This document shows, in pieces, positions 1,957 to 44,619 of a DNA stretch of 50,238 nucleotides. Within the stretch, counting starts at the first letter, position 1, and the number at the start of each line of letters is the position of its first letter. A program made the position numbers and the translations under genes. Source of the stretch: Okeania sp. SIO2B3 (GTDB lineage Bacteria > Cyanobacteriota > Cyanobacteriia > Cyanobacteriales > Microcoleaceae); contig NZ_JAAHGH010000047.1 in NCBI RefSeq assembly GCF_010672525.1, forward strand, positions 1-50,238. The letters run 5' to 3'. The notes under the pieces were generated by a model that searched no databases, was not told the DNA's origin, and was given only the letters and a program-made list of their open reading frames with translations.

Positions 1957-3002
1957 CGAAAAAACAGGTTTTGATGAATCAATTCCAGAAAAGAAGGAAC
2001 AGGGATAAATAATTGACAATTTATAGATAATAATTGCTTTTATTTTTGATTTTTGGAGATATCTGATAGTAGCGATCGCCTGTTTATAAATACCTTGAAA
2101 TTCTCGTACATTAACTCTATTTAGCAGGAAAGTTTCTATAGAGATTTATTCTCAAATTAACAATCAATATCATGTGTCTTTGAATACCTACAAATAATAC
2201 CATTTATCAAAAGCTTTTCTACATTTTGTTGAGCAGGGAACCCACCCCTAACCCCTCCCAGGAGGGGAAGTAGGAGAGTGGGAGAGTGGGGGAGAAGCAA
2301 ACATAATAATAATTAACATTAATTTAGCTTAAATTAGCAAAAAAGTGATTTTGCTTGTACTGATTAATTGACAACTGAAGTCTTCCCAAAGTATAGCAAG
2401 ACTTTTGGGAATTGGTATAAAATTTATGAGGGAGTAGGGAGTAGGGGAAAATTTGAAAGATTCTCAAGAGAATCGAGAAGAGCATTTTTATTATGCCTAA
2501 TTAATTAGACTTGATATGATAATTAAAAATCACCTATCCTTAAAAGAAGAGAATTTATTAAAAGATTTTTTTTCTCTTTGACGCGTAGAAGCTTTAAACC
2601 TTTATTATTCAATTAAATTGTGATGCAGTTATTTCTTAGGAGTCAGGAATACCGAGTCAAAATTAATAGTTTTGATACCATTTATTAGGTCAGAATTTAT
2701 ATTTTTCGTCTAAGGGATATCTCCTATCAAGTCTTTTGACTGCCCTTATTAAATGAAAGCTTATTTAAACAATACTCAGAATGGGAGAAACTATATTCTT
2801 TTTTTCCCACTCCCTACTTTCAAAAAGATGTAGCAAGAATAAATGAGATTTGGTATTACTCAAAAATCAGTAACCTCTTTGAATCAAAAATTTTCCACCT
2901 TTTCACCTACTGAATATTCTCAAAACTTCAAACTAATCTAACTTTGGAAAAATTTTTCTTGTTTCTCCTTGAAACGAGATGCTTTAAACCTTAATTATTC
3001 GG
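1957..3002. other. Non-coding stretch of repeats
   Basis: No credible gene is visible. The stretch holds a repeat at 2197-2418, a G-rich palindrome (CCCACCCCTAACCCCTCC then AGGAGGGG, about 2232-2262) that recurs around the window, a fragment of the CTTTAAACC-type repeat (about 2520-2620 and 2955-3000), and at 2909-2945 a copy of the 3' end of the gene at 4175-6400. Confidence 0.6.
2197..2418. repeat. Dispersed repeat, ATACCA ends
   Basis: It begins ATACCATTTATCAAAAGC and ends TTTTGGGAATTGGTAT, giving imperfect inverted ends (ATACCA...). The same left end (atcaaaagcttttctacatt) and right end recur at 8169-8346, and the right half recurs inverted at 14421-14560. A poly-C/G palindrome sits inside this copy. 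Confidence 0.6.
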
Positions 3003-3056
3003 TAAATTACCTGGTTTCATCGGAGCTAAATAGGGTTTGCTGAAAAAGTCTTATGG

Positions 3057-14934: not shown

Positions 14935-15025
14935 AAAAGCGAAGCAACATCTGGCTTCCCATCGTTCAAAAGCGAAGCAACATCTGGCTTCCCATCGTTC
15001 AAAAGCGAAGCATCTTCTGGCTTCC
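14935..15025. repeat. 33-bp tandem repeat
   Basis: Two perfect 33-bp units (14935-14967, 14968-15000) with core GAAGCAACATCTGGCTTCCC and a third partial unit with two changes. Each unit holds an inverted motif GAAGC...GCTTC. Small open frames run across it but have no gene-like context. Confidence 0.8.
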
Positions 15026-15301
15026 CCCTTTCTAAGGGGGACGGGAGGGGGATAAAAAAGGGGGACTTTTAGAGTTTTATTCCCCCCGCGCATTGGGGGG
15101 CTAGGGGGGCTTGCATCATACCCAGAATCAGCAACGCCAAAATGTTTATAGCGGTTTTCAAATTGATGAACCACATCGCCATAACTAAAACCCTGTAGGG
15201 ACGTTGCATAAGGGCGTCCCTACTGTGGTCTACTGAAATGAAAACCGCTGTAAGTACCACTAAGCACGAAAATCATAGCTAAATTCACCAAAGCCCAATT
15301 T
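15026..15301. other. Non-coding repeats before the AhpD-like gene
   Basis: Holds C/G-rich palindromes (ccccccgcgcattgggggg, about 15083-15101) and a hairpin gtagggacgttgcataaggg with its partner cgtccctac (about 15196-15224). It contains no gene. Confidence 0.5.
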
Positions 15302-19212: not shown

Positions 19213-22200
19213 CTACCAAGGACTACCCACCATCGTAAACCCTGCCCAATGATAAGGATGAGATAATTTTCGATTCCTCATTTCCCCAAGTACCGATGGT
19301 AACTCTACTGACCCACGCTCTCCAAGTCTCCTAATCTGATTTTCTTTAATCACCACATCCCCACGCAACATTGCTAACTGCGCCTGTCTTACAGCTTCGG
19401 CCTTAATCTTAGTCTGATTCAAATGACTATAAAACTCAGTCATTAATGCCAAGGTAGCTCGATCGTTGACATACCAAATACTAGCTAAAGCTGACTTTAC
19501 TCCTGCTGCTATTGCTAATCCCGCAAATCCTAATTCGGCATCTTTGTCCCCAAAGGCGGTGCGACAAGCTGATAATACTAACAATTCGACAGAAGACTCA
19601 TTCCAACCCAACTCCCTAATTTGGTCTAATTTTATTTGTTCTTCACCCCACAACTGAATGTAAGAATTACTAATTTTTCCCGGTCTAAAATCAGCATGAG
19701 TAGCTAAATGAATAATAGGATAAGGATAATTTTCTCTTTGAGCAATTAAATTATTCAGAGTAAAATCTTCATTGAGAAACATACTACCCTGCCATAGTTC
19801 TTGGGAAACAATTTCTAGTTCGATAGGTACTCCTGGCAAGGAATTGTGAGCAATAAACTCACTTGCTCCCATTGCTAACACCTGAGTGTCTTGGAGCGGT
19901 CGGTAGTTGGTATCCATTAAACTGACACTGGGAATTAAACTCAGGCTATATTTTTCGATCAGGAATTGTTCGCCATCATGTAATGCTGCTACGGCTAAAG
20001 TTCGTAAACCTTCATCCATACTGAATAGTAAGGTATCAATATTGGCTGCTTCTAGTTCCGATGCTATGGGTGCAATGAGCCAATTGTATAATTTTTGTGC
20101 TGGTGATAGATAACTATCATTATCTTGGTTGGCCGGCGTTGTAACTTTTATTCGTAATTCTAGGGCAACTTTCATGATTTGTTCGCGGTTGACTTCGGCA
20201 ATGGTTTTGATGATTGGTTGACCTTCTTTGGTATATAAGATTATTTGTAATTGTTCTGGATAGACATTAATATAAACAATGGCAGATTCTTTTCCGGTTT
20301 GATTTGCCATGTCGCTTAAGATTTCTCGGACGCTTTGTGTAGAAATTAATTTTTCCTCAAGATTTGCTCCCAGGAAATCTGAATATTCCTGGAGACTGTT
20401 TCGTTCTAACATTGTTACTACTTGGTCTGAAGCTGTGGCTGTTATTAGAGATTTGGTATTAACAGGATTAATTGTTTTTAAGATTTGTTGGGTGTCAGTT
20501 GTATGGTTGATAGATGCTTCAGTTTGTTCTTGAGCAGTGCCAGCATTGGTTGTTTGGTTATAGTTAGTGGGAGCGGTTAGGGTGAAAAAATCGCTATTGT
20601 TTGATATTTGCTGTAATATTGACTGGGACTGATTATTATCAATCTGGATGTCGGTGGTTTCAGTTGCGGTGGTTACTGGAATCTCTGTTGAATCATTGAG
20701 ATTTTCTACTGGGATAATCTGGTTATCATTGAGATTTTCTGGTATAATAGTGTCGCCACTATCAATATTAGTAATTGTTTCTATTGCCTCTGGGGCGATC
20801 GCTATTTGTTCTCCGGTATTGGTATTGTCTGGGGTATTATCAATAGTTGGATTCCCACCTACGGAAACAGTTGTTTGCTCTTCTATAGGAATATTGCCAC
20901 CTGTTTGAATATTGATATTAGTGTCTCCTTGATTGACCTGTACAGTTTGAGTCTCGGCGCTAATATTACTACCTGGTTGAATATTGATATTAGCATCTCC
21001 TTGATTGACCTGTACAGTTTGAGTCTCGGCGCTAATATTACCACCTGGTTGAACATTGATATTAGCATCACCTTGATTTGCCTGTGTAGTTTGGTTCTCG
21101 ACGCTGATCTCCCCACCTGCCTGAATATCGATATTAGCATCTCCTTGATTAGCGATCGCCTCTTGATTACCTACAGAAACATCTCCTCCAGCATCAATCT
21201 CAATATTAGCATCTCCATCTCCAGAGATTACAGTTTGGTCTTCGCTGCTGATATCTCCTGTTGCATCTAGATCGATACCACCTGCTTCTCCCTCTGAAGC
21301 AATAGATTCTAAGTCCAAAGTAGTAATGGAGCCATCAGTTGCTTCTAGTTGAATAATACCTGAACTGACCGTACCCAAAGAACTTAAGTTTCCTGTAGTT
21401 ATTTGACTGCCATTAATAATAACTTCACCACTGGGGCCGTCCGGTGCTTGAGTCGTCACATTCCCTGTATTCACTGTTGCTATCTGACTTTGAATTCTCA
21501 AATCACCACTTTCAGTCGCACCAAAGGATAAGACATTTTCCAGATTCACACTTTCTGGGGCATCAATCTCAATACTTCCTCCTCTGCCTTCCTCTGAGAA
21601 AGAAGTAATGTCTCCCGTTGCACTAATCTCCCCTATTTCACTCTCCAATGTAATGTCACCTCCCTGTTGTATCCCTTCCGAACGAATGCCGTTAATACTG
21701 ATATTACCTCGAGATGTGAGAGTGACATCCCCACCAATACCATCTGTAGAAAAAGTGTTTAATTCTCCTTGAACATCCATGCTGTTTTCGCTGCGAGTGT
21801 CAATAGTAATATCACCCCCACGCTCCCTTCCCTGGGATAGAATATTTTCTAGATTAACTGAACCTTCAGCTTGAATATTCACATTCCCGGCTGTACCTTG
21901 TTCTGAAAATGTTTCTATTGCTTGGGTCGAATTGACTTCGCCGTTTTCACTAATAATTTCAACATTTCCCCCTGTGGTTGCTTTGGTTTCGTTGAGGGCG
22001 CTAGCTTCTAGTTTGCCTACGGTAATATTTTCTCTGGCATTTAGTGTAATATTTCCAGTACCGTCGGGGGAACGAGAATTTATTACTCCAGCAGTGGTGT
22101 CTATTGTGCCGTTGTTGCTAGTAATACTGATATTTCCTGCTACTCCTTGGGTGGCTTCTCCTTGAGGTTTTGGTATGAGGATAAAATTATTCAATACCGA

Positions 22201-25200
22201 TCTTTCTTCCCTGACAAAACCTGATGCTAGGTCTATTTGACCTACTTCTATTGCGTCATCCGCAACAATATTTATTGTACCTGTATCGCCTTCATCTGCA
22301 CCGGAATATATTCTTGCTTTTGAGGTATTAATATTGCTACCTGCTTCGAGAATAATATCTCCTCCTTTGCCTGGGTTTTCAGTATCGGATGTAGTTGCGG
22401 GTTCGGAGGCAGAGATCACATTACTATTTTCGGTGATATTGATGTCACCTCCTGCTTTTAAGAGAATTTGACCGCCGTCTGCATCGGCAAAGGAGTAAAT
22501 GTCACTGGTAGTGATGTTTCCTGTGGATGCTTCTAGAGTAACGTTGCCTCCAGTTCCCTCCCCAGAATAGTTTGCCAAAAATCCATTGCTGGTGTCTATG
22601 TTTCCTGTTTCTGTGATGATAATAATTTGACCGCCTTGTTGTTCTCCGTGGGAACTGATGGTATTAGTAGTCACATCTGTTTTTGCACTCAGAGTTACAT
22701 CTCCAGCGTTACCATTTTCTGAAAATGATTGGATGGGTTGAGTAGCATTGATTTCCCCCTGTTCACTGGTAATGGTAATGTCACCTCCGTCAGCAGCTTC
22801 TTTTGATTCTGAGGCAGAAGATTGGATAATACCTGTGGTGATATTTTCTTGACCAATGATTTCTATTGCGCCTGCGTTTCCTGCATCGGTACTTTTAGCT
22901 GAGATGGTACTATTTTCGGCTGAGAGTTCCCCTGTGTTAATAGTAATTTTTCCTCCGTCTCCAGCTCCTGTGGTCTCCGTAATAATTTGACCTTCGAGTT
23001 GAAAGCTTTGACTGGGGTTGATGTTGATGCTGCCTCCGTCTCCACGATCGGAAGTAGCTGCGGATATAGTAGTGTTTTCCGCTATGGTGAGGTTTTCTGT
23101 TTCGATATTTATGATGCCTGCGTTTCCCCTGTCTTCTGTTTCAACTGTTATTCTGCCTTCCCCTGAAATATTTATGTTTTCTGGAGCGAATATATTGATA
23201 TTGCCTCCATCTCCACTGGAAGTAGTGCGGGCTGAGATGAAACCGTTTTCAGTGAAAGTAATATTGAGGTCAGGGTCAAAGCGAGCGGAACGATTTTCTC
23301 TACTCCCCTGCTCCCCTCTCCTATAGGGTTTAAGGGTAAGAGTACCTGCGGGGGTTTCTCCTGCTGTTTCGGCAAATATTCCGAGTTGGCCTGAGATTAG
23401 TAAGTCTGTAGCATTAATGGTAATGTTGCCTCCCGCTTCGGTATTAGTTGCTCCTTCTTTTGCTGTGGCACTAATTTGAGCATCTTCTCCTATGGTTAGT
23501 TTTCTGGTGTTGATTTCTATATCTCCAGCTTTTCCTTGATTATTGGTTTCTGTCGTTAAACTTGTTCCTGTTTCCAGGATGAATTCTTCGGTGTCGATCT
23601 CGATCGCTCCAGCATTTCCTTTGTCTGTGGTAGAAGCTGATATGGCTACTCCATCTGAGAGAGTGAGGTTTTGGGTTTCAATATTGATGGTGCCTGCGTT
23701 TCCTTTGTCTGAAGTTTCTACAGCGATGAATCCTTTTCCAGAAATATCTATGCTTTCTGGAGCATTGAGATTAATGTTGCCTCCATTTCCTGTGGAGGAG
23801 GTAGAGGCAGAAATGAAACCGTCGTTGCTGAAATTGATATTGAGGTTTGGGTTGTCTTCGTAGGGGCTGAGGGTAAGAGTGCCAGCATTTGCTGATGCTT
23901 CAGTTTCGGCGAATATTCCAAGTTTTCCTGTAATATTGAGTTCGTTGGTGTTGATGGTGATATTGCCTCCGTCTCCGGTGCTGGTTGCGCCTAATACTGC
24001 TGTGGCACTGATTTGGGCATCTTGCCCGATATCTACAGTGTTAGCTTTGATAGTGATATCTCCTGGTGCCCCTGCTGCATAAGTTTCGGTGATTAAGCTA
24101 GTGCCTTGCTCTAGGTTGAGCTTGTTTGCTTGGATGTCGATACTGCCTGCGTTGCCTGTACCTTCTGTACTTGCTCGGAGTTGGCTGTTGTTGGTTAGTT
24201 TGATGTTTCGGGGAGTTACAAGGGTGATGTTGCCAGCGTGTCCTTCGGCGTTGGTGATACTGAAGAACTCAGTGTTGTCGAGTATGATGTTTTTTTGGCT
24301 ATCAATGTAGACATCTCCGGCGGGTTGGTCTCCTTTGGTGTCACTTTCGATGGTGACGTTGTTGAGGTTGAGGTTGTCTCCACTAAAGATGTTGACATTT
24401 CCTGATTGGCCTTGAGTGCCTACATCTATTTGTATTGCTTCACTCCAAGAATCTAATTGTATAGATACCTGCTTACTGGTGATGATGGATAAGTCATTGA
24501 GTAGAAGGTCTGCTTTTGATTTACTTTCTATTGTTACCTGCCCAGATTTTTCGTGGGAAGATAGTGTTAGTATTTCTGCATTGCTGAGGTTGTTGGTGGT
24601 AATGTTAACGTCTCCACCATTTCCAGAGTCGTTTTTTCCGACTGAGAATGTGTTTATTTGCAGTTGTTCTGTATCTCCGTATTCTGGACGATTATATTTT
24701 ATTGTATCTGCATTCAAATAAATAGATCCTCCATGCCCTGAGTTACCCTCCATACTTGAATTGGAAAAGGAATTGAGCGATTCTGTGTGAATATTACCTC
24801 CAGCAGTCACAGTAATATTTCCTCCATCTCCCGATCCTTCAGTCCCGCCACTAGAAAATGAATTAACATCTCTTGTTATGATATTACCTCCAGCAGTCAG
24901 AGTAACATCTCCCCCATTCCCTAAGTTGCTTAGAGAAAAAGTATTTATCTGCCCTGTTGTGATATCACCGTCTGCATTGAGAGTAATATCTCCCCCATCA
25001 CCTGAGTTCTGGCCTATGGCAATAGAAGAGTAATCACCATTTTCCAGATTTTCTATTATAGTGATATTTCCCTGGGCAGCGATCGTGATATTACCCCCTT
25101 CCCCTTCGCTGTCGTGAGAATAGGAGGAATCTATATCTCCTGCTGTGATATTACCTCCAGCATTCATGCTAATGTGACCGCCTGAACCTGTATTTTGACC

Positions 25201-28200
25201 AAAATTGGAATTTTCTATTTCTATAGTAATATCACCCCCAGCACTTAGGGTAATATCTCCACCATCTCCAGAAGAAGAATAGGAATTAATCTCTTTTGTT
25301 ATGATATTTTCCTCAGTAGTGATTGTGACATCACCAGCATTACCACGAGCATAGGAGGAATCAAGCTCTCCTGTTGTGATCTTACCCTTAGCTGTAATTA
25401 TAATATTACCCCCATCCCCATCAAAGGATGAAGTATCCAAATTACCCAAAACAATACCAGCACCTGCAATTGTCAAATTCCGCCCATTGGTCTTAATTGT
25501 ATCCACACCAAATGTATTGGGGTCGCTGCCAACATCCGCTTCATTATCCAACATGGTAATAGCACCAATTCCATCCTCATCCACATCTACATGAAATTCT
25601 ATCTCTCCTTCCCCAGGCAGAAATTCCAACGCATCATCTGCTATATCTTCAACTGTAATATCATTTGTCGCCTCTAACTTAACATCGGCATCCCCAGAAG
25701 TTTCATCAAATTCATCATTGATCGTAATATTAGTTCCCGACAAAGAAACACTTTCCCCACTAGCTTTAATGCCACTACCCGTAGCAACAATATCTCCCGT
25801 AGCTTCAATATTAATTGCACCACCTGTCCCGCTATCAACTTCTGTATTTTCTCTAGATTCCACCTCAGAATTATTCTCTATAGTAGAAATGCTTTCTGTT
25901 AAAGTCACATTTTCTGCACTCTGAATTTCTATATCTCCACCAGCAGTAACAATACCATTGACATCCTCACTCACATCACCAATATTCACATCTCCCAACA
26001 CATCAAAAAACGCTCCACCACTACCAGAAACCGCTTCTAAATTTTCTACATTTAATTGCAAAGGTACACCCACAAAACCTATTCCTCCACTGCCATTTGT
26101 TTCAAATAAAACACTATCTGCATTAATAATTGAACTATCAGAAACTCTGGCAATATTTCCACCATTTGCATTAACTAAAACTTGTCCTGTTGTGGTTAAA
26201 TTTGCCAGATTTATATCCCCTACTTCTCCTAAATTTCCTAACTCTATTCTGATGTTTCCACTTCCGGCATTTAATGTTGTTCCATCTAGTTGATTTATTG
26301 ATGCTCCTCCGGCACTCCGGTTATCAATATTCATCTCATCATTATTACCAAGTAGCTCAATATTGCCATTGCCAATTGATGTGTCAATATCGGCATTTAT
26401 ATTAATACTTCTACCTGCTTTTAATTCTACAGATTCTGTAGTTTCTATCTTTTCATTAATTGTTATATCGTTGTCAGCAAATAAAATTATATCTCCTGAT
26501 AATTCCTCAATATTTTCTGCGGAAATTGTCACATCAGAATTTTCATCTTGAGCAAAGGGGTCTATTGGTGTTTCTGTTTCTATTGTTTCTGAATTGTCAG
26601 CAATTTCTGTCTCTGAATTTTCTGTTACCTCTGAATTATCGACATTTTCTTCTGTATTTTCTGTAGATGGCAATTCCGAATTATTATCTACTATTTCTGT
26701 TTCTGAACTTTCAGTATTTTCTGTAGTGGGAGAATCTGTACTTTCTGTAGATGGCACTTCCGAATTATTATCTACTATTTCTGTTTCTGAACTTTCAGTA
26801 TTTTCTGTGGCGGGAGAATCTGTACTTTCTGTAGATGGCACTTCCGAATTATCATCTACTGTTTCTGTTTCTGAACTTTCAGAATTTTCAGAATTTTCAG
26901 AATTTTCAGGCTCTCCCACTGTGATATTTTCTGGGTCTAATAATATTGTTCCTGGAGTGCCAAATGCAGCACTAACATTGACATTCCCATCAAATATTAA
27001 TTGTTGTTTTCCAGATACTTCAACAAACCCTCCATCACCAGAAAATTCTCCTCCTCTAGCACTAATATTTCCGGCAAAATTAGTTATGCCATCTGACCAA
27101 ATTATTACTTGACCACCGTCACCATTTGTGGTAGCATCAGCGGAAATAAATGAGTTATTGTTAACAAATGTTTGCTGAGAATTGGGTACTATTCCACTAC
27201 CTTGAAAGTCGCCTCCAATTAATACTCTTCCTCCTCCATTTAAACCATCAGCATTGATATTGGCATCGATAATTGCTACGCGATCGCCTAACACATTAAA
27301 TTGTCCACCGATATTATATCCCCCCTGACCCCCCTTTGAAAGGGGGGGAGTTGTTGATACATCTATATCTCCAGAAGCGATCGCATCTCCTGTAATACCA
27401 GAAATTATTGTATTTGAATCTATCAACACCACATCACCATTTCCATTCACAGTCATAGATGTGGCCTGAGTTATTTCTCCACCTGTTAACAGTTCGGGCA
27501 AAGATAAGGGGGTTATACCAGACATATCTTCCCCATTCGCTGTTGTTGAACCCACTTCCAAACTTAATAAATGTCCTGGTTGGGATATTCTCAGGGTACT
27601 ACCTCCTTCTACTGCTGCGATCGTAACGTTACCACCTGCTGTGGAGAGTTGCCCCGTGTTGATAACCGTGCCACCCAACAAAGTGAGATTTTCCCCTGAG
27701 TTTAAACTGAGGTTTCCTTCGTTAACTATAGCGCCTGGGTTTGATATATTAAATCTATAGCCACTGGGGTTTCCTACTAGGTTGGCATAATCATTCGTTC
27801 CCATAGCTTGAAACCAGAAATTATTACTGTTAAAACCTATACCTGTGGCAGTGGTAACGCTGAATGAGGCAGGGACATTAAGGCTAGCGTTGGGGCCAAA
27901 CATTATGCCTACGGGGTTCATCAGGAAGAGGTTAGAGTTACCACCGATGACTTGGATGAGACCGTTAATTATAGAAGGGTCTCCACCCGTAATTCTACCC
28001 AGAATGTTGCGAGTATCTGGAGTGGTTAAGAAATTGGCTGTTTGACCGGAGTGAAGATTGAATTGGTCAAAACTGTGGAAGAGGTTAGTCCCATTATGAG
28101 TGCCACCTTGAATATTAAATTGATTGCCGTTTTGATTGACGGTTGTACCTGTGCCATCGTTTGAGGGGGTTATGGGTTGAGATTTGGCGGGAGTTGTAGC

Positions 28201-28263
28201 CAATATCCCTAAAATTACAGTCAGAGCTGTTATACTGTAAGACTCTAATTTATTAGCTTTCAT
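19213..28263 (-). CDS. Giant two-partner-secretion exoprotein with C-terminal CHAT protease
   Basis: 3016 residues. Signal peptide ~1-28; TPS/filamentous-haemagglutinin N-domain ~30-290 with NPVGIMFGP (116-124), a variant of the NPNGI motif. A Glu/Ser-rich linker (~445-565) has 28-residue repeats. A long beta-helix region follows (GNGGNINL-type repeats), then short NQGDANINIQPGGNI-type repeats (20880-21180). From ~2640 a CHAT domain has catalytic H2856 (HLATHADF) and C2900 (VLSACRTAFG) and ends AGFTMVGSPW. CHAT domains are caspase-like cysteine proteases. Export through a TpsB partner would put it outside the outer membrane; no TpsB is in the window. Two inserts look repeat-derived (~306-315 and ~1648-1661). 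Confidence 0.9.
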   Translation of the reverse strand: MKANKLESYSITALTVILGILATTPAKSQPITPSNDGTGTTVNQNGNQFNIQGGTHNGTNLFHSFDQFNLHSGQTANFLTTPDTRNILGRITGGDPSIINGLIQVIGGNSNLFLMNPVGIMFGPNASLNVPASFSVTTATGIGFNSNNFWFQAMGTNDYANLVGNPSGYRFNISNPGAIVNEGNLSLNSGENLTLLGGTVINTGQLSTAGGNVTIAAVEGGSTLRISQPGHLLSLEVGSTTANGEDMSGITPLSLPELLTGGEITQATSMTVNGNGDVVLIDSNTIISGITGDAIASGDIDVSTTPPLSKGGQGGYNIGGQFNVLGDRVAIIDANINADGLNGGGRVLIGGDFQGSGIVPNSQQTFVNNNSFISADATTNGDGGQVIIWSDGITNFAGNISARGGEFSGDGGFVEVSGKQQLIFDGNVNVSAAFGTPGTILLDPENITVGEPENSENSENSESSETETVDDNSEVPSTESTDSPATENTESSETEIVDNNSEVPSTESTDSPTTENTESSETEIVDNNSELPSTENTEENVDNSEVTENSETEIADNSETIETETPIDPFAQDENSDVTISAENIEELSGDIILFADNDITINEKIETTESVELKAGRSININADIDTSIGNGNIELLGNNDEMNIDNRSAGGASINQLDGTTLNAGSGNIRIELGNLGEVGDINLANLTTTGQVLVNANGGNIARVSDSSIINADSVLFETNGSGGIGFVGVPLQLNVENLEAVSGSGGAFFDVLGDVNIGDVSEDVNGIVTAGGDIEIQSAENVTLTESISTIENNSEVESRENTEVDSGTGGAINIEATGDIVATGSGIKASGESVSLSGTNITINDEFDETSGDADVKLEATNDITVEDIADDALEFLPGEGEIEFHVDVDEDGIGAITMLDNEADVGSDPNTFGVDTIKTNGRNLTIAGAGIVLGNLDTSSFDGDGGNIIITAKGKITTGELDSSYARGNAGDVTITTEENIITKEINSYSSSGDGGDITLSAGGDITIEIENSNFGQNTGSGGHISMNAGGNITAGDIDSSYSHDSEGEGGNITIAAQGNITIIENLENGDYSSIAIGQNSGDGGDITLNADGDITTGQINTFSLSNLGNGGDVTLTAGGNIITRDVNSFSSGGTEGSGDGGNITVTAGGNIHTESLNSFSNSSMEGNSGHGGSIYLNADTIKYNRPEYGDTEQLQINTFSVGKNDSGNGGDVNITTNNLSNAEILTLSSHEKSGQVTIESKSKADLLLNDLSIITSKQVSIQLDSWSEAIQIDVGTQGQSGNVNIFSGDNLNLNNVTIESDTKGDQPAGDVYIDSQKNIILDNTEFFSITNAEGHAGNITLVTPRNIKLTNNSQLRASTEGTGNAGSIDIQANKLNLEQGTSLITETYAAGAPGDITIKANTVDIGQDAQISATAVLGATSTGDGGNITINTNELNITGKLGIFAETEASANAGTLTLSPYEDNPNLNINFSNDGFISASTSSTGNGGNINLNAPESIDISGKGFIAVETSDKGNAGTINIETQNLTLSDGVAISASTTDKGNAGAIEIDTEEFILETGTSLTTETNNQGKAGDIEINTRKLTIGEDAQISATAKEGATNTEAGGNITINATDLLISGQLGIFAETAGETPAGTLTLKPYRRGEQGSRENRSARFDPDLNITFTENGFISARTTSSGDGGNINIFAPENINISGEGRITVETEDRGNAGIINIETENLTIAENTTISAATSDRGDGGSININPSQSFQLEGQIITETTGAGDGGKITINTGELSAENSTISAKSTDAGNAGAIEIIGQENITTGIIQSSASESKEAADGGDITITSEQGEINATQPIQSFSENGNAGDVTLSAKTDVTTNTISSHGEQQGGQIIIITETGNIDTSNGFLANYSGEGTGGNVTLEASTGNITTSDIYSFADADGGQILLKAGGDINITENSNVISASEPATTSDTENPGKGGDIILEAGSNINTSKARIYSGADEGDTGTINIVADDAIEVGQIDLASGFVREERSVLNNFILIPKPQGEATQGVAGNISITSNNGTIDTTAGVINSRSPDGTGNITLNARENITVGKLEASALNETKATTGGNVEIISENGEVNSTQAIETFSEQGTAGNVNIQAEGSVNLENILSQGRERGGDITIDTRSENSMDVQGELNTFSTDGIGGDVTLTSRGNISINGIRSEGIQQGGDITLESEIGEISATGDITSFSEEGRGGSIEIDAPESVNLENVLSFGATESGDLRIQSQIATVNTGNVTTQAPDGPSGEVIINGSQITTGNLSSLGTVSSGIIQLEATDGSITTLDLESIASEGEAGGIDLDATGDISSEDQTVISGDGDANIEIDAGGDVSVGNQEAIANQGDANIDIQAGGEISVENQTTQANQGDANINVQPGGNISAETQTVQVNQGDANINIQPGSNISAETQTVQVNQGDTNINIQTGGNIPIEEQTTVSVGGNPTIDNTPDNTNTGEQIAIAPEAIETITNIDSGDTIIPENLNDNQIIPVENLNDSTEIPVTTATETTDIQIDNNQSQSILQQISNNSDFFTLTAPTNYNQTTNAGTAQEQTEASINHTTDTQQILKTINPVNTKSLITATASDQVVTMLERNSLQEYSDFLGANLEEKLISTQSVREILSDMANQTGKESAIVYINVYPEQLQIILYTKEGQPIIKTIAEVNREQIMKVALELRIKVTTPANQDNDSYLSPAQKLYNWLIAPIASELEAANIDTLLFSMDEGLRTLAVAALHDGEQFLIEKYSLSLIPSVSLMDTNYRPLQDTQVLAMGASEFIAHNSLPGVPIELEIVSQELWQGSMFLNEDFTLNNLIAQRENYPYPIIHLATHADFRPGKISNSYIQLWGEEQIKLDQIRELGWNESSVELLVLSACRTAFGDKDAELGFAGLAIAAGVKSALASIWYVNDRATLALMTEFYSHLNQTKIKAEAVRQAQLAMLRGDVVIKENQIRRLGERGSVELPSVLGEMRNRKLSHPYHWAGFTMVGSPW
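20880..21180 (-). repeat. Coding repeats near the C-terminus of the exoprotein
   Basis: Four to five units of about 22 residues (VNQGDANINIQPGSNISAET) lie in tandem. Two neighbouring units are almost identical in DNA (ctccttgattgacctgtaca appears at about 20924 and 20996), so they duplicated recently. Confidence 0.75.
26640..26890 (-). repeat. 84-bp Ser/Glu/Thr-rich coding repeats
   Basis: Three units of 28 residues (SSETEIVDNNSEVPSTESTD, then SPTTENTE) in the linker of the exoprotein. The linker is acidic and likely unfolded, separating the TPS domain from the beta-helix body. Confidence 0.75.
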
Positions 28264-32072: not shown

Positions 32073-32257
32073 GTATAATGAAAATGTCCTCCTCTAAATA
32101 TTATGGATGTTTATGGCTTTCATCTTGACAGTCGTATTATTAAAGCACTACAATAATATTAAAAATTTTGGCTAACTAGGCTGACTTATTGGAAATATTT
32201 CCGGAAACTAAATCAAAACGGTTGTCACAAAGAGCAGAAAAAGTAATAGGGGAAATT

Positions 32258-33289
32258 ATGAGTGAATCAAGAATCATACAAATATCTGGCTGTGATAACC
32301 AAAACCGTACTGGAGATGTAATTTTTGTTCATGGGTTGGATGGAGACCCTCGTAAAACTTGGCATCCTCAAGAAAAAAGTGATGATAACAATTTTTGGCC
32401 TGCTTGGTTGGGAGAAGATTTACCAGATATGGGCATTTGGTCTCTAGAATACAACCTAAAATCTTTTGAGTGGAAGGGTACTACAATGCCTTTAGCCGAT
32501 CGCGCCACTAATATTCTGGCAACTCTTGACTCCTACAAAATTGGCGATCGCCCCTGATTTTTTATTACCCACAGCATGGGAGGACTTTTAGTAAAACAGA
32601 TGCTGCGCCATGCAATAGATTTTGGGATTCCAGAATGGAAGGCAATTTTAGACCAAACTAAAGGTATTGTTTTCTTTTCTACACCCCATTCTGGATCTAA
32701 TATAGCCAATTTGGTTAAGTATATGGGTTGGGTTCTCCGAACTACGGTTAGTATTGATGAATTGGAAGCTCACCATCCACGGTTGCGAGAGCTAACAAAT
32801 GTTCATAGGAATCAAAAAAAGCTAGGTAAAATTCCTATACAAGTGTATTGCGAAAAGCAAAAAACTTATTGGGGCAATGTTGGTGTTTTAGTGGTAGATG
32901 AAACTAGCTATGAACTTAAAGGTTGCCAAAAATCTAATGTCAGTCCAAACAGTCAAACAATTAGCTGTACTCTACTAATCACTAGCAAACAAGAAAATGT
33001 TGAGTTCTACTTGTATTCAAATGATTCTAGCGCTAGAAGAAGCAGGATATTTGAGGCAGGTAAAGAATATATAGCAACACGGGTTGAATTAGGAACATAT
33101 AGTGGAACGCGCCGTGCTAAAAACAATTTGATCACAGACGTACCAATAGAAGCTACTATTACTTTTGATAATGTGCCACTTGAAGTTAATAAGATAGAAG
33201 TTTTTCAAATTAGTTCATGGTTGGGAAGTTCTTACTACAAAAACGATATCAAGGTTGAGTTTCGTGATATTTCTTTGTCAGAAAAGTAA
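32258..33289 (+). pseudogene. Alpha/beta hydrolase with in-frame UGA and replaced C-terminus
   Basis: From ATG 32258 (site GGGGAAATT upstream) the N-half reads VIFVHGLDGDPRKTWHP, an esterase oxyanion-hole motif. In-frame TGA at 32555-32557 follows SYKIGDRP. The same frame continues FFITHSMGGLLVKQML with the nucleophile elbow THSMGG, then IVFFSTPHSGS. After GVLVVDETS (~32910) the expected end with the catalytic His is missing; an unrelated beta-rich stretch follows (QTISCTLLITSKQENVEFYL ... VNKIEVFQISSWLG). So the gene has a nonsense codon just before its catalytic serine and a swapped C-terminus. The second part could still be translated from ATG 32576. Confidence 0.75.
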
Positions 33290-43403: not shown

Positions 43404-43770
43404 TTAAAAGGGAATAAGTAAGAAAGAAGATGGAAGAGAGAATAAGAAAAAAAGCATAGGTAGTCCTGCATGGTAATGGTACTGTTTTTCCTCCTGACTC
43501 CTATACGGGCGATTTCCGTTGCGGAATGCTCCTAATTACGCGAATCGCCCCTACGACTCCTGACTCCTACCTTCAAAAGATTTTATATCGATGCTACCGG
43601 ATTTGATATAACTTGTCTATCTCTATCTACAGTCAACTCTGATTAAAATATTATTCTATGCAACTTCTTATGAATTTGTTATGAGCTAAGTTTTTTGATA
43701 ATAAGCTTTAAGTAGTTATGACATAGTATGATAATGTTTGGATAATTATTTAATTGGTGACAATAATCTT
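43404..43770. other. Intergenic region before the propeller gene
   Basis: Contains a pyrimidine-rich ctcctgactcctac repeat, a gcgatttccgttgcggaatg / gcgaatcgcccc fragment (about 43506-43553) and a decayed MITE end gatgctaccggatttgatat (43591-43610). No gene. Confidence 0.5.
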
Positions 43771-44619
43771 ATGAGCAATATTTATGTGTTCCACGAAGGC
43801 AGAGGAGACAATGGGTGGCTTTGGTCTAATGCCTTTGATGGCTCTGAATGGGTTGGCGATCAAAAAGTACCCAATACAGGTATTACTGCGGGTCCATCAG
43901 CAGTAGTATACAATGATCAAATCTATGTGTTCCACCAGGGCATGGAAGATAGTGGCTGGCTTTGGTACAATGTTTTTGATGGCTCTGAATGGGCAGGCGA
44001 TCAAAAAGTACCCGACACAGGTATCAGCGAGGGTCCATCCGCAGTAGTATACAATGACCAAATCTATGTGTTTCACCAAGGTAGGGGAGATAGTGGCTGG
44101 CTTTGGTATAATGTTTTTGATGGCTCTGAATGGGCTGGTGATACCGAGGTTAAGAGAACAGGAATGACTGCCGATCCATCAGCAGTGGTATACAATGACC
44201 AAATCTATGTGTTTCACCAAGGCCGGGGAGATAGTGGCTGGCTTTGGTATAATGTTTTTGATGGCTCTGAATGGGCTGGTGATACCGAGGTTAAGAGAAC
44301 AGGAATGACTGCGGGTCCATCCGCAGTAGTATACAATGACCAAATCTATGTGTTTCACCAAGGTAGGGGAGATAGTGGCTGGCTTTGGTATAATGTTTTT
44401 GATGGCTCTGAATGGGCTGGTGATACAGAGGTCAAGAGAACAGGAATGACTTCGAGTCCATCAGCAGTAGTATACAATGACCAAATCTATGTGTTTCACC
44501 AAGGCCGGGGAGATAGTGGCTGGCTTTGGTATAATGTTTTTGATGGCTCTGAATGGGCTGGTGATACAGAGGTGCGGGGAACAGGTCTTACTGACGATCC
44601 AGATGCGGTTGTCATGTAA
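43771..44619 (+). CDS. Six-repeat beta-propeller, lectin-like
   Basis: 282 residues from ATG 43771 (MSNIYVFHEGRG); a TTG at 43738 is less likely. The protein consists of six 47-residue repeats with IYVFHQGRGDSGWLWYNVFD, GSEWAGDTEV and GMTAGPSAVVYND. Similar FHQG/GxLWY/PSAV repeats occur in propeller lectin-like proteins of Streptomyces and fungi as I know them. Six repeats suit a closed six-blade propeller, with the N-terminal strand pairing with the C-terminal one. No signal peptide. Ligand unknown; a sugar is an inference. DNA units of 141 bp are nearly identical, so amplification is recent. Confidence 0.8.
   Translation: MSNIYVFHEGRGDNGWLWSNAFDGSEWVGDQKVPNTGITAGPSAVVYNDQIYVFHQGMEDSGWLWYNVFDGSEWAGDQKVPDTGISEGPSAVVYNDQIYVFHQGRGDSGWLWYNVFDGSEWAGDTEVKRTGMTADPSAVVYNDQIYVFHQGRGDSGWLWYNVFDGSEWAGDTEVKRTGMTAGPSAVVYNDQIYVFHQGRGDSGWLWYNVFDGSEWAGDTEVKRTGMTSSPSAVVYNDQIYVFHQGRGDSGWLWYNVFDGSEWAGDTEVRGTGLTDDPDAVVM
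43894..44600 (+). repeat. 141-bp coding tandem repeats
   Basis: CCATC of each unit falls at 43894, 44035, 44176, 44317 and 44458, exactly 141 bp apart, with the last degenerate unit at 44599. The middle units differ by only a few bases. Confidence 0.9.

Follow-up and report, generated by a model that had tools for sequence, protein, structure and literature searches.

The window analysed here, a stretch of 50,238 nucleotides from Okeania sp. SIO2B3, lies on one contig (C192) of a 10.0-Mb genome of 249 contigs, and encodes an exoprotein of the two-partner secretion (TPS) type that ends in a CHAT domain (Table 1). It had been predicted that this protein begins with a signal peptide and a TPS domain containing NPVGIMFGP, and both were recovered, the TPS domain with PF05860 and TIGR01901 (adhes_NPXG, residues 62-139, E 8.1e-22, NCBIfam) and the signal peptide by eye and hydropathy. 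The core of the original prediction, an exported CHAT domain with an intact catalytic dyad carried on a TPS exoprotein, is likewise borne out (PF05860, PF12770, H2856/C2900). Pfam found only the CHAT and TPS domains in the protein, with no TPR, LapG or pre-toxin domain, and assigned the flanking genes to a TnpB-type transposase, which is the next ORF downstream, and a PF05145 (AbrB) protein. The window contains no TpsB, DUF928 or CHASE2 gene, and the one frame read on the + strand of 19213-28263 is full of stops.

Table 1. Layout of the TPS-CHAT protein, in window positions
Feature	Coordinates	Strand	Basis
TPS exoprotein with C-terminal CHAT protease (putative), 3016 aa, ATG start	19213..28263	-	ORF list, Pfam
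Predicted signal peptide, residues 1-28	28180..28263	-	AKS/Q end, by eye and hydropathy
TPS secretion domain, residues 36-237	27553..28158	-	PF05860 E 1.6e-38
NPVGIMFGP motif, residues 116-124	27892..27918	-	Translation
Repeat passenger, predicted beta-solenoid, residues 238-2430	20974..27552	-	Model for ~2044-2430 only; rest from look of sequence
Acidic low-complexity stretch, residues 451-580	26524..26913	-	Translation, orthologue alignment
Predicted flexible linker, residues 2475-2610	20434..20841	-	pLDDT mostly <50; varies among relatives
CHAT module with N-terminal helical part, residues 2611-3016	19216..20433	-	pLDDT 92.8 for 2601-3016
CHAT domain proper, residues 2721-3014	19222..20103	-	PF12770 E 1.6e-66
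Predicted catalytic His2856 codon	19696..19698	-	Dyad alignment
Predicted catalytic Cys2900 codon, sole Cys of the protein	19564..19566	-	Dyad alignment, Cys count

Passenger, linker and CHAT module

Modelling of residues 2000-2660 gave a confident beta-solenoid for about 2044-2430 and very low confidence for about 2475-2610, which we read as a probable flexible linker; the passenger model had no PDB match at E <= 0.001 with Foldseek. The beta-helix of about 2300 residues originally predicted is therefore plausible, but about 390 of these residues are confidently modelled, and residues 451-580 are acidic and of low complexity.

Modelling of the CHAT region had been proposed as a check, and AlphaFold2, run on residues 2601-3016 with an alignment (A1) of 68 of the 91 CHAT regions of relatives, returned a confident structure (pLDDT 92.8, pTM 0.92). 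Given that sequence searches of the PDB with this region were fruitless, the single sequence having no match and the profile chance matches only, a structure search was needed. In the PDB the best Foldseek match was Csx29/TPR-CHAT of Craspase (E 1.1e-15), and others were ciliary central-pair chains (8.2e-10), separase (1.7e-9), the transmembrane anti-sigma factor DdvA (8.6e-8), SAVED-CHAT (1.3e-7), gingipain RgpB (2.8e-5) and caspase-4 (5.8e-4). The sole PADLOC match, BovA (E 6.1e-9), covers the CHAT part, and we read this as shared CHAT and not as defence.

The relative loci held 96 CHAT ORFs, from which one weak match and four short pieces were removed to leave the 91 regions. The two dyad residues, which in the window protein sit in HLATHADF (H2856) and LSACRTA (C2900), are both present in 89 of these, the remaining two rows stopping before those columns, as well as in all 27 fused CHAT regions, and they are invariant in the 68-row A1; since one of the six peptides used to search for relatives falls just after C2900, this conservation is slightly favoured. 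By domain, fold and dyad it belongs with the CHAT proteases of clan CD, its proteolytic activity being predicted. Its best named matches are from Okeania sp. SIO1I7 (98% identity over the CHAT part), SIO2C9 (97%), SIO3B5 (95%) and O. hirsuta (94%). Against three Okeania orthologues, dN/dS was 0.15-0.17 for CHAT and 0.13-0.24 for the TPS domain, about 0.3 for passenger residues 581-1500 and 0.30-0.57 for the linker region (2481-2660), and the low values at the two ends indicate that the architecture is not a product of chance.

C2900 is the only cysteine in the protein, where 34 would be expected at the rate of the 21 other ORFs of the window (98 Cys in 8570 aa; Poisson P about 4e-14). The 28 fused proteins together have 58 Cys in 61,233 aa (0.09%), 16 of the proteins having exactly one after residue 40, and the other locus ORFs of at least 200 aa have 2030 in 218,744 aa (0.93%). 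Exported proteins that retain a catalytic cysteine would be expected to show such poverty. It is marked in the fused CHAT proteins and only a tendency in the unfused ones: in the same genome, the Cys count runs from 0 to 9 in the 12 unfused CHATs that score above 90 bits and have a signal-like start (a total of 42 in 10,511 aa), and of those lacking a signal some are richer (8 Cys in 708 aa; 20 in 1100 aa) and others not (2 in 1162 aa; 3 in 528 aa). Signal peptides were scored here by a hydropathy threshold, which the Cys-rich CHATs L148 and L153 pass too. A signal-bearing CHAT protein of 968 aa on contig C190 of this genome (L143) has no cysteine at all and, on that count, is probably not an active cysteine protease, so that the catalytic cysteine is not kept in every exported CHAT.

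Several further observations were made in the window. In the middle passenger (23764-26523, residues 581-1500) synonymous divergence from the orthologue L042 is 0.42, with 0.02-0.13 elsewhere (TPS domain, early and late passenger, CHAT) and 0.25 in the acidic stretch; the excess is weaker against L043 and L044, and it suggests that passenger segments may have been exchanged between paralogues. The palindrome CCCCCTTTGAAAGGGGG lies inside the ORF at 27330-27347, where the protein reads PPLSKGGQGG, with a similar one at 15024-15040; the window has these two places, or 5 matches when both strands are counted, where 0.11 would be expected. Two same-frame ORFs with a stop between them (32189-33289) look like one interrupted hydrolase-like gene, and near-identical tandem repeats around FHQGRGDSGWLWYNVFDGSEWAGD occupy 43738-44619, the protein there being lectin-like by look only.

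TPS, TpsB and CHAT genes in the host genome and its relatives

Whether the genome supplies a TpsB partner with POTRA domains was one check attached to the original prediction. Three ShlB/TpsB genes lie over the cut-off, on C243, C113 and C239, and absence of TpsB is thus no objection to the assignment; POTRA_2 was found in one of the two ShlB genes scanned with Pfam. Contig C192 itself has no ShlB match. The ShlB gene on C243 adjoins a fused TPS-CHAT paralogue, that on C113 adjoins two unfused TPS genes and a signal-bearing TPR-CHAT, and that on C239 has no TPS within the 19 kb examined. There are eight TPS matches in the genome, seven of them over the cut-off, and five TPS are fused to CHAT (window, C243, C1, C237, C169), all ending in that domain; the C113 pair is unfused, with a CHAT gene 9-14 kb downstream on the same contig. 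ShlB was over the cut-off in all 19 genomes reached from 20 relative loci. Within the order, 55 of 60 genomes have TPS, all 55 with ShlB at E 8.4e-23 or better, and in the five that have no TPS, ShlB is absent or weak only (E 2.7e-4 or worse).

The host genome (G000) has 43 CHAT-domain matches, and signal-bearing CHATs are a broad, mainly cyanobacterial group, wider than the single architecture originally described. A quick tree of 97 CHAT rows places the window protein in a 71-row branch (SH-aLRT 100) comprising 26 fused, 18 signal-bearing and 9 signal-less rows and 18 whose 5' end is missing. Five of the nine signal-less rows read as broken pieces of fused genes, one as signal-bearing and three as having unsure starts; with the first six re-labelled in this way and the last three dropped, the tree shows 7 changes in the fused state instead of 12. 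A second branch, of 16 rows, consists mostly of signal-bearing CHATs, and TPS or TpsB occurs in 9 of its 15 unfused loci (L104, L107, L108, L109, L112, L113, L114, L121, L123), with DUF928 and CHASE2 instead in L116 and L119 and none of the four near the CHAT of L106 and L065; the contigs that carry L115 and L120 measure about 4 kb. TPR was found in L123 and L105 of this branch and not in L113. In Cyanobacteria bacterium SBLK (L070:1450-19866) four TPS-CHAT ORFs are neighbours, one of them on the opposite strand.

DUF928 and CHASE2 genes stand beside CHAT/TPS on C113 and C243 of the host genome and in seven relative loci (L079, L082, L083, L113, L114, L116, L119). All four full-length DUF928 genes of the host genome have a CHASE2 gene no more than about 3.5 kb away. 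TPS, TpsB and CHAT accompany two of these pairs, and the pairs on C242 and C135 have no CHAT match on their contigs. Three of the genome's seven CHASE2 genes are away from any DUF928, and among the ORFs of the scanned loci DUF928 occurs in 11 only. The output of the CHASE2 protein is a cyclase in L113 and on C113, C242 and C135, GGDEF-EAL in L082, and, in C243 and L212, a CHAT with GH and SC motifs recognized by eye; in L116 Pfam gave no further domain. A PDB sequence search with the CHAT-CHASE2 protein returned nothing useful. The stretch L122:1732-15875 (C243) holds a sigma-like ORF (weak), DUF1822, CHAT-CHASE2, DUF928 and TPS-CHAT, with TpsB on the opposite strand.

The C-terminal position of TPS proteins

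Eleven TPS proteins that lack CHAT, from loci with a separate CHAT, have a C-terminal region with two cysteines, the last at most 16 residues from the end. An HMM of this tail was trained on 17 TPS proteins and applied to 84, drawn from the relative loci and from 39 further TPS loci chosen among the strongest listed TPS matches of the order genomes, minus ORFs cut at the 3' end. It matched 48 of the 55 proteins without CHAT, the 17 training proteins all being among these 48, versus 2 of the 29 with CHAT. Six of the seven tail-less proteins without CHAT read as truncated or broken ORFs (L056, L071, L076, L085, L095, L098), with L191 unexplained; a Fisher test that omits these six gives p 1.6e-17, treating the rows as independent when 11 of the 29 fused rows come from Okeania genomes. 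The window protein has no tail match and a single cysteine, and hence no C-terminal two-cysteine anchor. In the two exceptions with CHAT (L105, L181) the tail is internal and TPR-CHAT follows it, the arrangement that joining a tailed TPS gene to a TPR-CHAT gene would give. Judged from sequence, then, the CHAT of the window protein stands where the two-Cys tail sits in other TPS proteins.

The anchor of HMW1/HxuA is described, in the excerpted part of the source, as remaining in the periplasm (PMC5422565), and the cyanobacterial tail looks like an anchor of that kind. Natural fusions extend the comparison. L184, L192 and L195 are TPS-tail-POTRA-ShlB proteins, and a TPS-tail-TpsB order, with the tail between passenger and transporter part, was found in every one of six further ShlB frames (L205-L210; four genomes) selected because they are long. 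Five of these six stretches hold a CHAT gene (cut by the stretch end in L205), three of them DUF928 also, and L207, at a contig end, has none; the TpsB frames L213 and L214 contain no TPS or CHAT. In L181:132-7220 a single frame of 2362 aa runs through TPS, tail, ShlB barrel, TPR and CHAT, and its contig (L212) also carries DUF928 and CHASE2. In relatives, then, genes for TPS, TpsB and signal-bearing CHAT are neighbours, and in one case the three make up a single ORF.

In Omp85 proteins the POTRA domains lie in the periplasm, as do the two ends of the barrel, and a CHAT that follows the barrel, as in L181, should therefore be periplasmic too. This placing is strongest for the TPR-CHAT class; for the class of the window protein, which has neither TPR nor tail, it would hold by analogy. 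The original prediction had put the protease outside the cell, at the tip of the passenger. As stated this is unsupported: what relatives have at their C-terminus is the two-Cys tail, the POTRA and barrel of TpsB or barrel-TPR-CHAT, which together with the HMW1/HxuA anchor leans towards a periplasmic C-terminus for the window protein. The protease may, as was also suggested, cut itself free, but inspection of the linker by eye in 18 aligned proteins showed no conserved cleavage site.

Possible roles and comparison with known systems

We tentatively favour, at somewhat under an even chance, the proposal that the protein is a TPS exoprotein whose anchor has been replaced by CHAT, and that this module, in the periplasm, retains the exoprotein and, on a signal, cuts it or a partner. 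The protein would be exported by Sec, its TPS domain would engage one of the three TpsB transporters, and the solenoid would be threaded out and fold outside, while the CHAT module, tethered by some 135 flexible residues, would fold in the periplasm and hold the exoprotein in its transporter. Once triggered, CHAT would cut the exoprotein or a periplasmic partner, and the surface protein would be released or its state reported inward. The periplasmic location, retention, cleavage, substrate and trigger are each putative. Consistent with the proposal are the kept dyad, the purifying selection and the Cys-poverty of the fused proteins, the exchange of tail for CHAT (48/55 against 2/29), the TPS-tail-TpsB fusions and L181, and the TPS or TpsB genes at 9 of the 15 unfused loci of one signal-bearing branch. 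Proteolytic release of TPS adhesins is also known, of FHA by SphB1 and of CdrA by periplasmic LapG, from what is excerpted of PMC5422565. Against it count the linker that shows no conserved cleavage site, the separation of the window copy from TpsB, DUF928 and CHASE2, the Cys-less L143, and the tether itself, which equally allows CHAT to lie outside.

That last point leads to a surface protease, in which the whole protein would be translocated and CHAT refold at the end of the solenoid to cut surface proteins, neighbours or its own linker. The flexible linker before CHAT and the low cysteine content suit this, secreted clan CD proteases exist, gingipain RgpB being one of the fold matches, and a TPS-secreted protease, LepA, is described in the excerpted text of PMC5422565; but the two-Cys tail or TpsB itself holds the same C-terminal position in relatives, and separate signal-bearing CHATs that lack a TPS domain would stop in the periplasm, and we consider this reading unlikely.

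A role in envelope signalling, which we regard as slightly less likely again, would make a periplasmic partner such as DUF928 or the CHASE2 receptor the main substrate, in place of the exoprotein, and the exoprotein the sensor, the response being the CHASE2 output: a cyclase, GGDEF-EAL, or CHAT-CHASE2 next to the sigma-like ORF. The neighbourhoods on C113 and C243 and at the seven relative loci point this way, as do the outputs in L082 and L113 and the precedent of Craspase, which, in the part of PMC9729208 at hand, cuts a nearby-encoded protein that binds a sigma factor. The window copy is unlinked to DUF928 and CHASE2, though, DUF928 is confined to 11 scanned ORFs, and the C242 and C135 pairs have no CHAT on their contigs. 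Delivery of CHAT into neighbouring cells as a CdiA-like contact toxin was rejected as highly improbable: a TPS exoprotein with a C-terminal enzyme would suit it, but all five fused paralogues end in CHAT, whereas CdiA C-termini vary, and a TnpB-type transposase, not an immunity gene, is the next ORF downstream, with no pre-toxin domain found by Pfam.

The favoured proposal, of a periplasmic CHAT that retains and cuts, may belong to a wider, undescribed envelope system, possible although we hold it to be doubtful, with examples among cyanobacteria and in two MAG records of gammaproteobacteria (L113, L114). It would be composed of a TPS exoprotein, TpsB, an exported CHAT, whether fused or not, DUF928 and a CHASE2 receptor whose output is a cyclase, GGDEF-EAL or CHAT/sigma-linked. 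Periplasmic CHAT would act there as a proteolytic switch between surface display and signalling, and the window protein would be the one-piece form, with CHAT replacing the anchor.

TPS and CHAT domains are each already known. The searched literature, which takes in few subscription papers or preprints, contained no study of CHAT with two-partner secretion or hemagglutinin and none pairing CHAT with CHASE2, in agreement with the original statement that no functional study of the TPS-CHAT architecture is known; single-protein TPS and CHAT annotations may well exist in databases, as was also said. New within that literature are the exported CHAT group, the swap between CHAT and the TPS tail, and the fusion of such CHATs with TpsB. 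The place of CHAT at the anchor position suggests that exported proteases of CHAT type control the retention and release of such surface proteins. In the cases studied, TPS adhesins are released by unrelated proteases encoded elsewhere; if our reading is true, a protease built into the anchor position, with natural fusions linking this type of protease to transporter and exoprotein, would let surface proteins be held and released by a self-contained device. CHAT/separase-type proteases would then act beyond the cytoplasm as well, and there would be a testable context for DUF928 and CHASE2, of which little is understood.

LepA of Pseudomonas is a trypsin-like protease. It shares with the window protein secretion by the TPS route and differs in that the excerpted text does not describe it as CHAT (PMC5422565). 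Craspase TPR-CHAT/Csx29 and separase share the predicted fold and the His-Cys dyad with the window CHAT but are intracellular and act in complexes, whereas the window CHAT is exported and has no TPR in Pfam; the Craspase CHAT is activated by a binding event and cuts a nearby-encoded protein (PMC9729208, in part). HetF of Anabaena is also a cyanobacterial CHAT protease, but a CHAT-TM-TPR protein of the divisome, able to cleave PatU3 (PMC8406250, PMC12288457, both in part). That CHAT proteases are otherwise intracellular, as originally stated, holds for Craspase (PMC9729208) and HetF (PMC12288457) within the excerpts of the few papers examined. CdrA (LapG) and FHA (SphB1) are likewise TPS exoproteins whose surface release depends on a protease, and the excerpt notes that putative maturation protease genes appear absent from TPS operons (PMC5422565); LapG and SphB1 are unrelated to CHAT, whereas the window protein has its protease fused to it, and in relatives the protease gene may be a neighbour. 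Closest in layout are the TpsA proteins of HMW1/HxuA type, which share the TPS domain, the solenoid passenger and a separate C-terminal module, this being in their case a small periplasmic disulfide anchor, according to the excerpted source (PMC5422565), and in the window protein a protease module of 400 residues with no cysteine pair.
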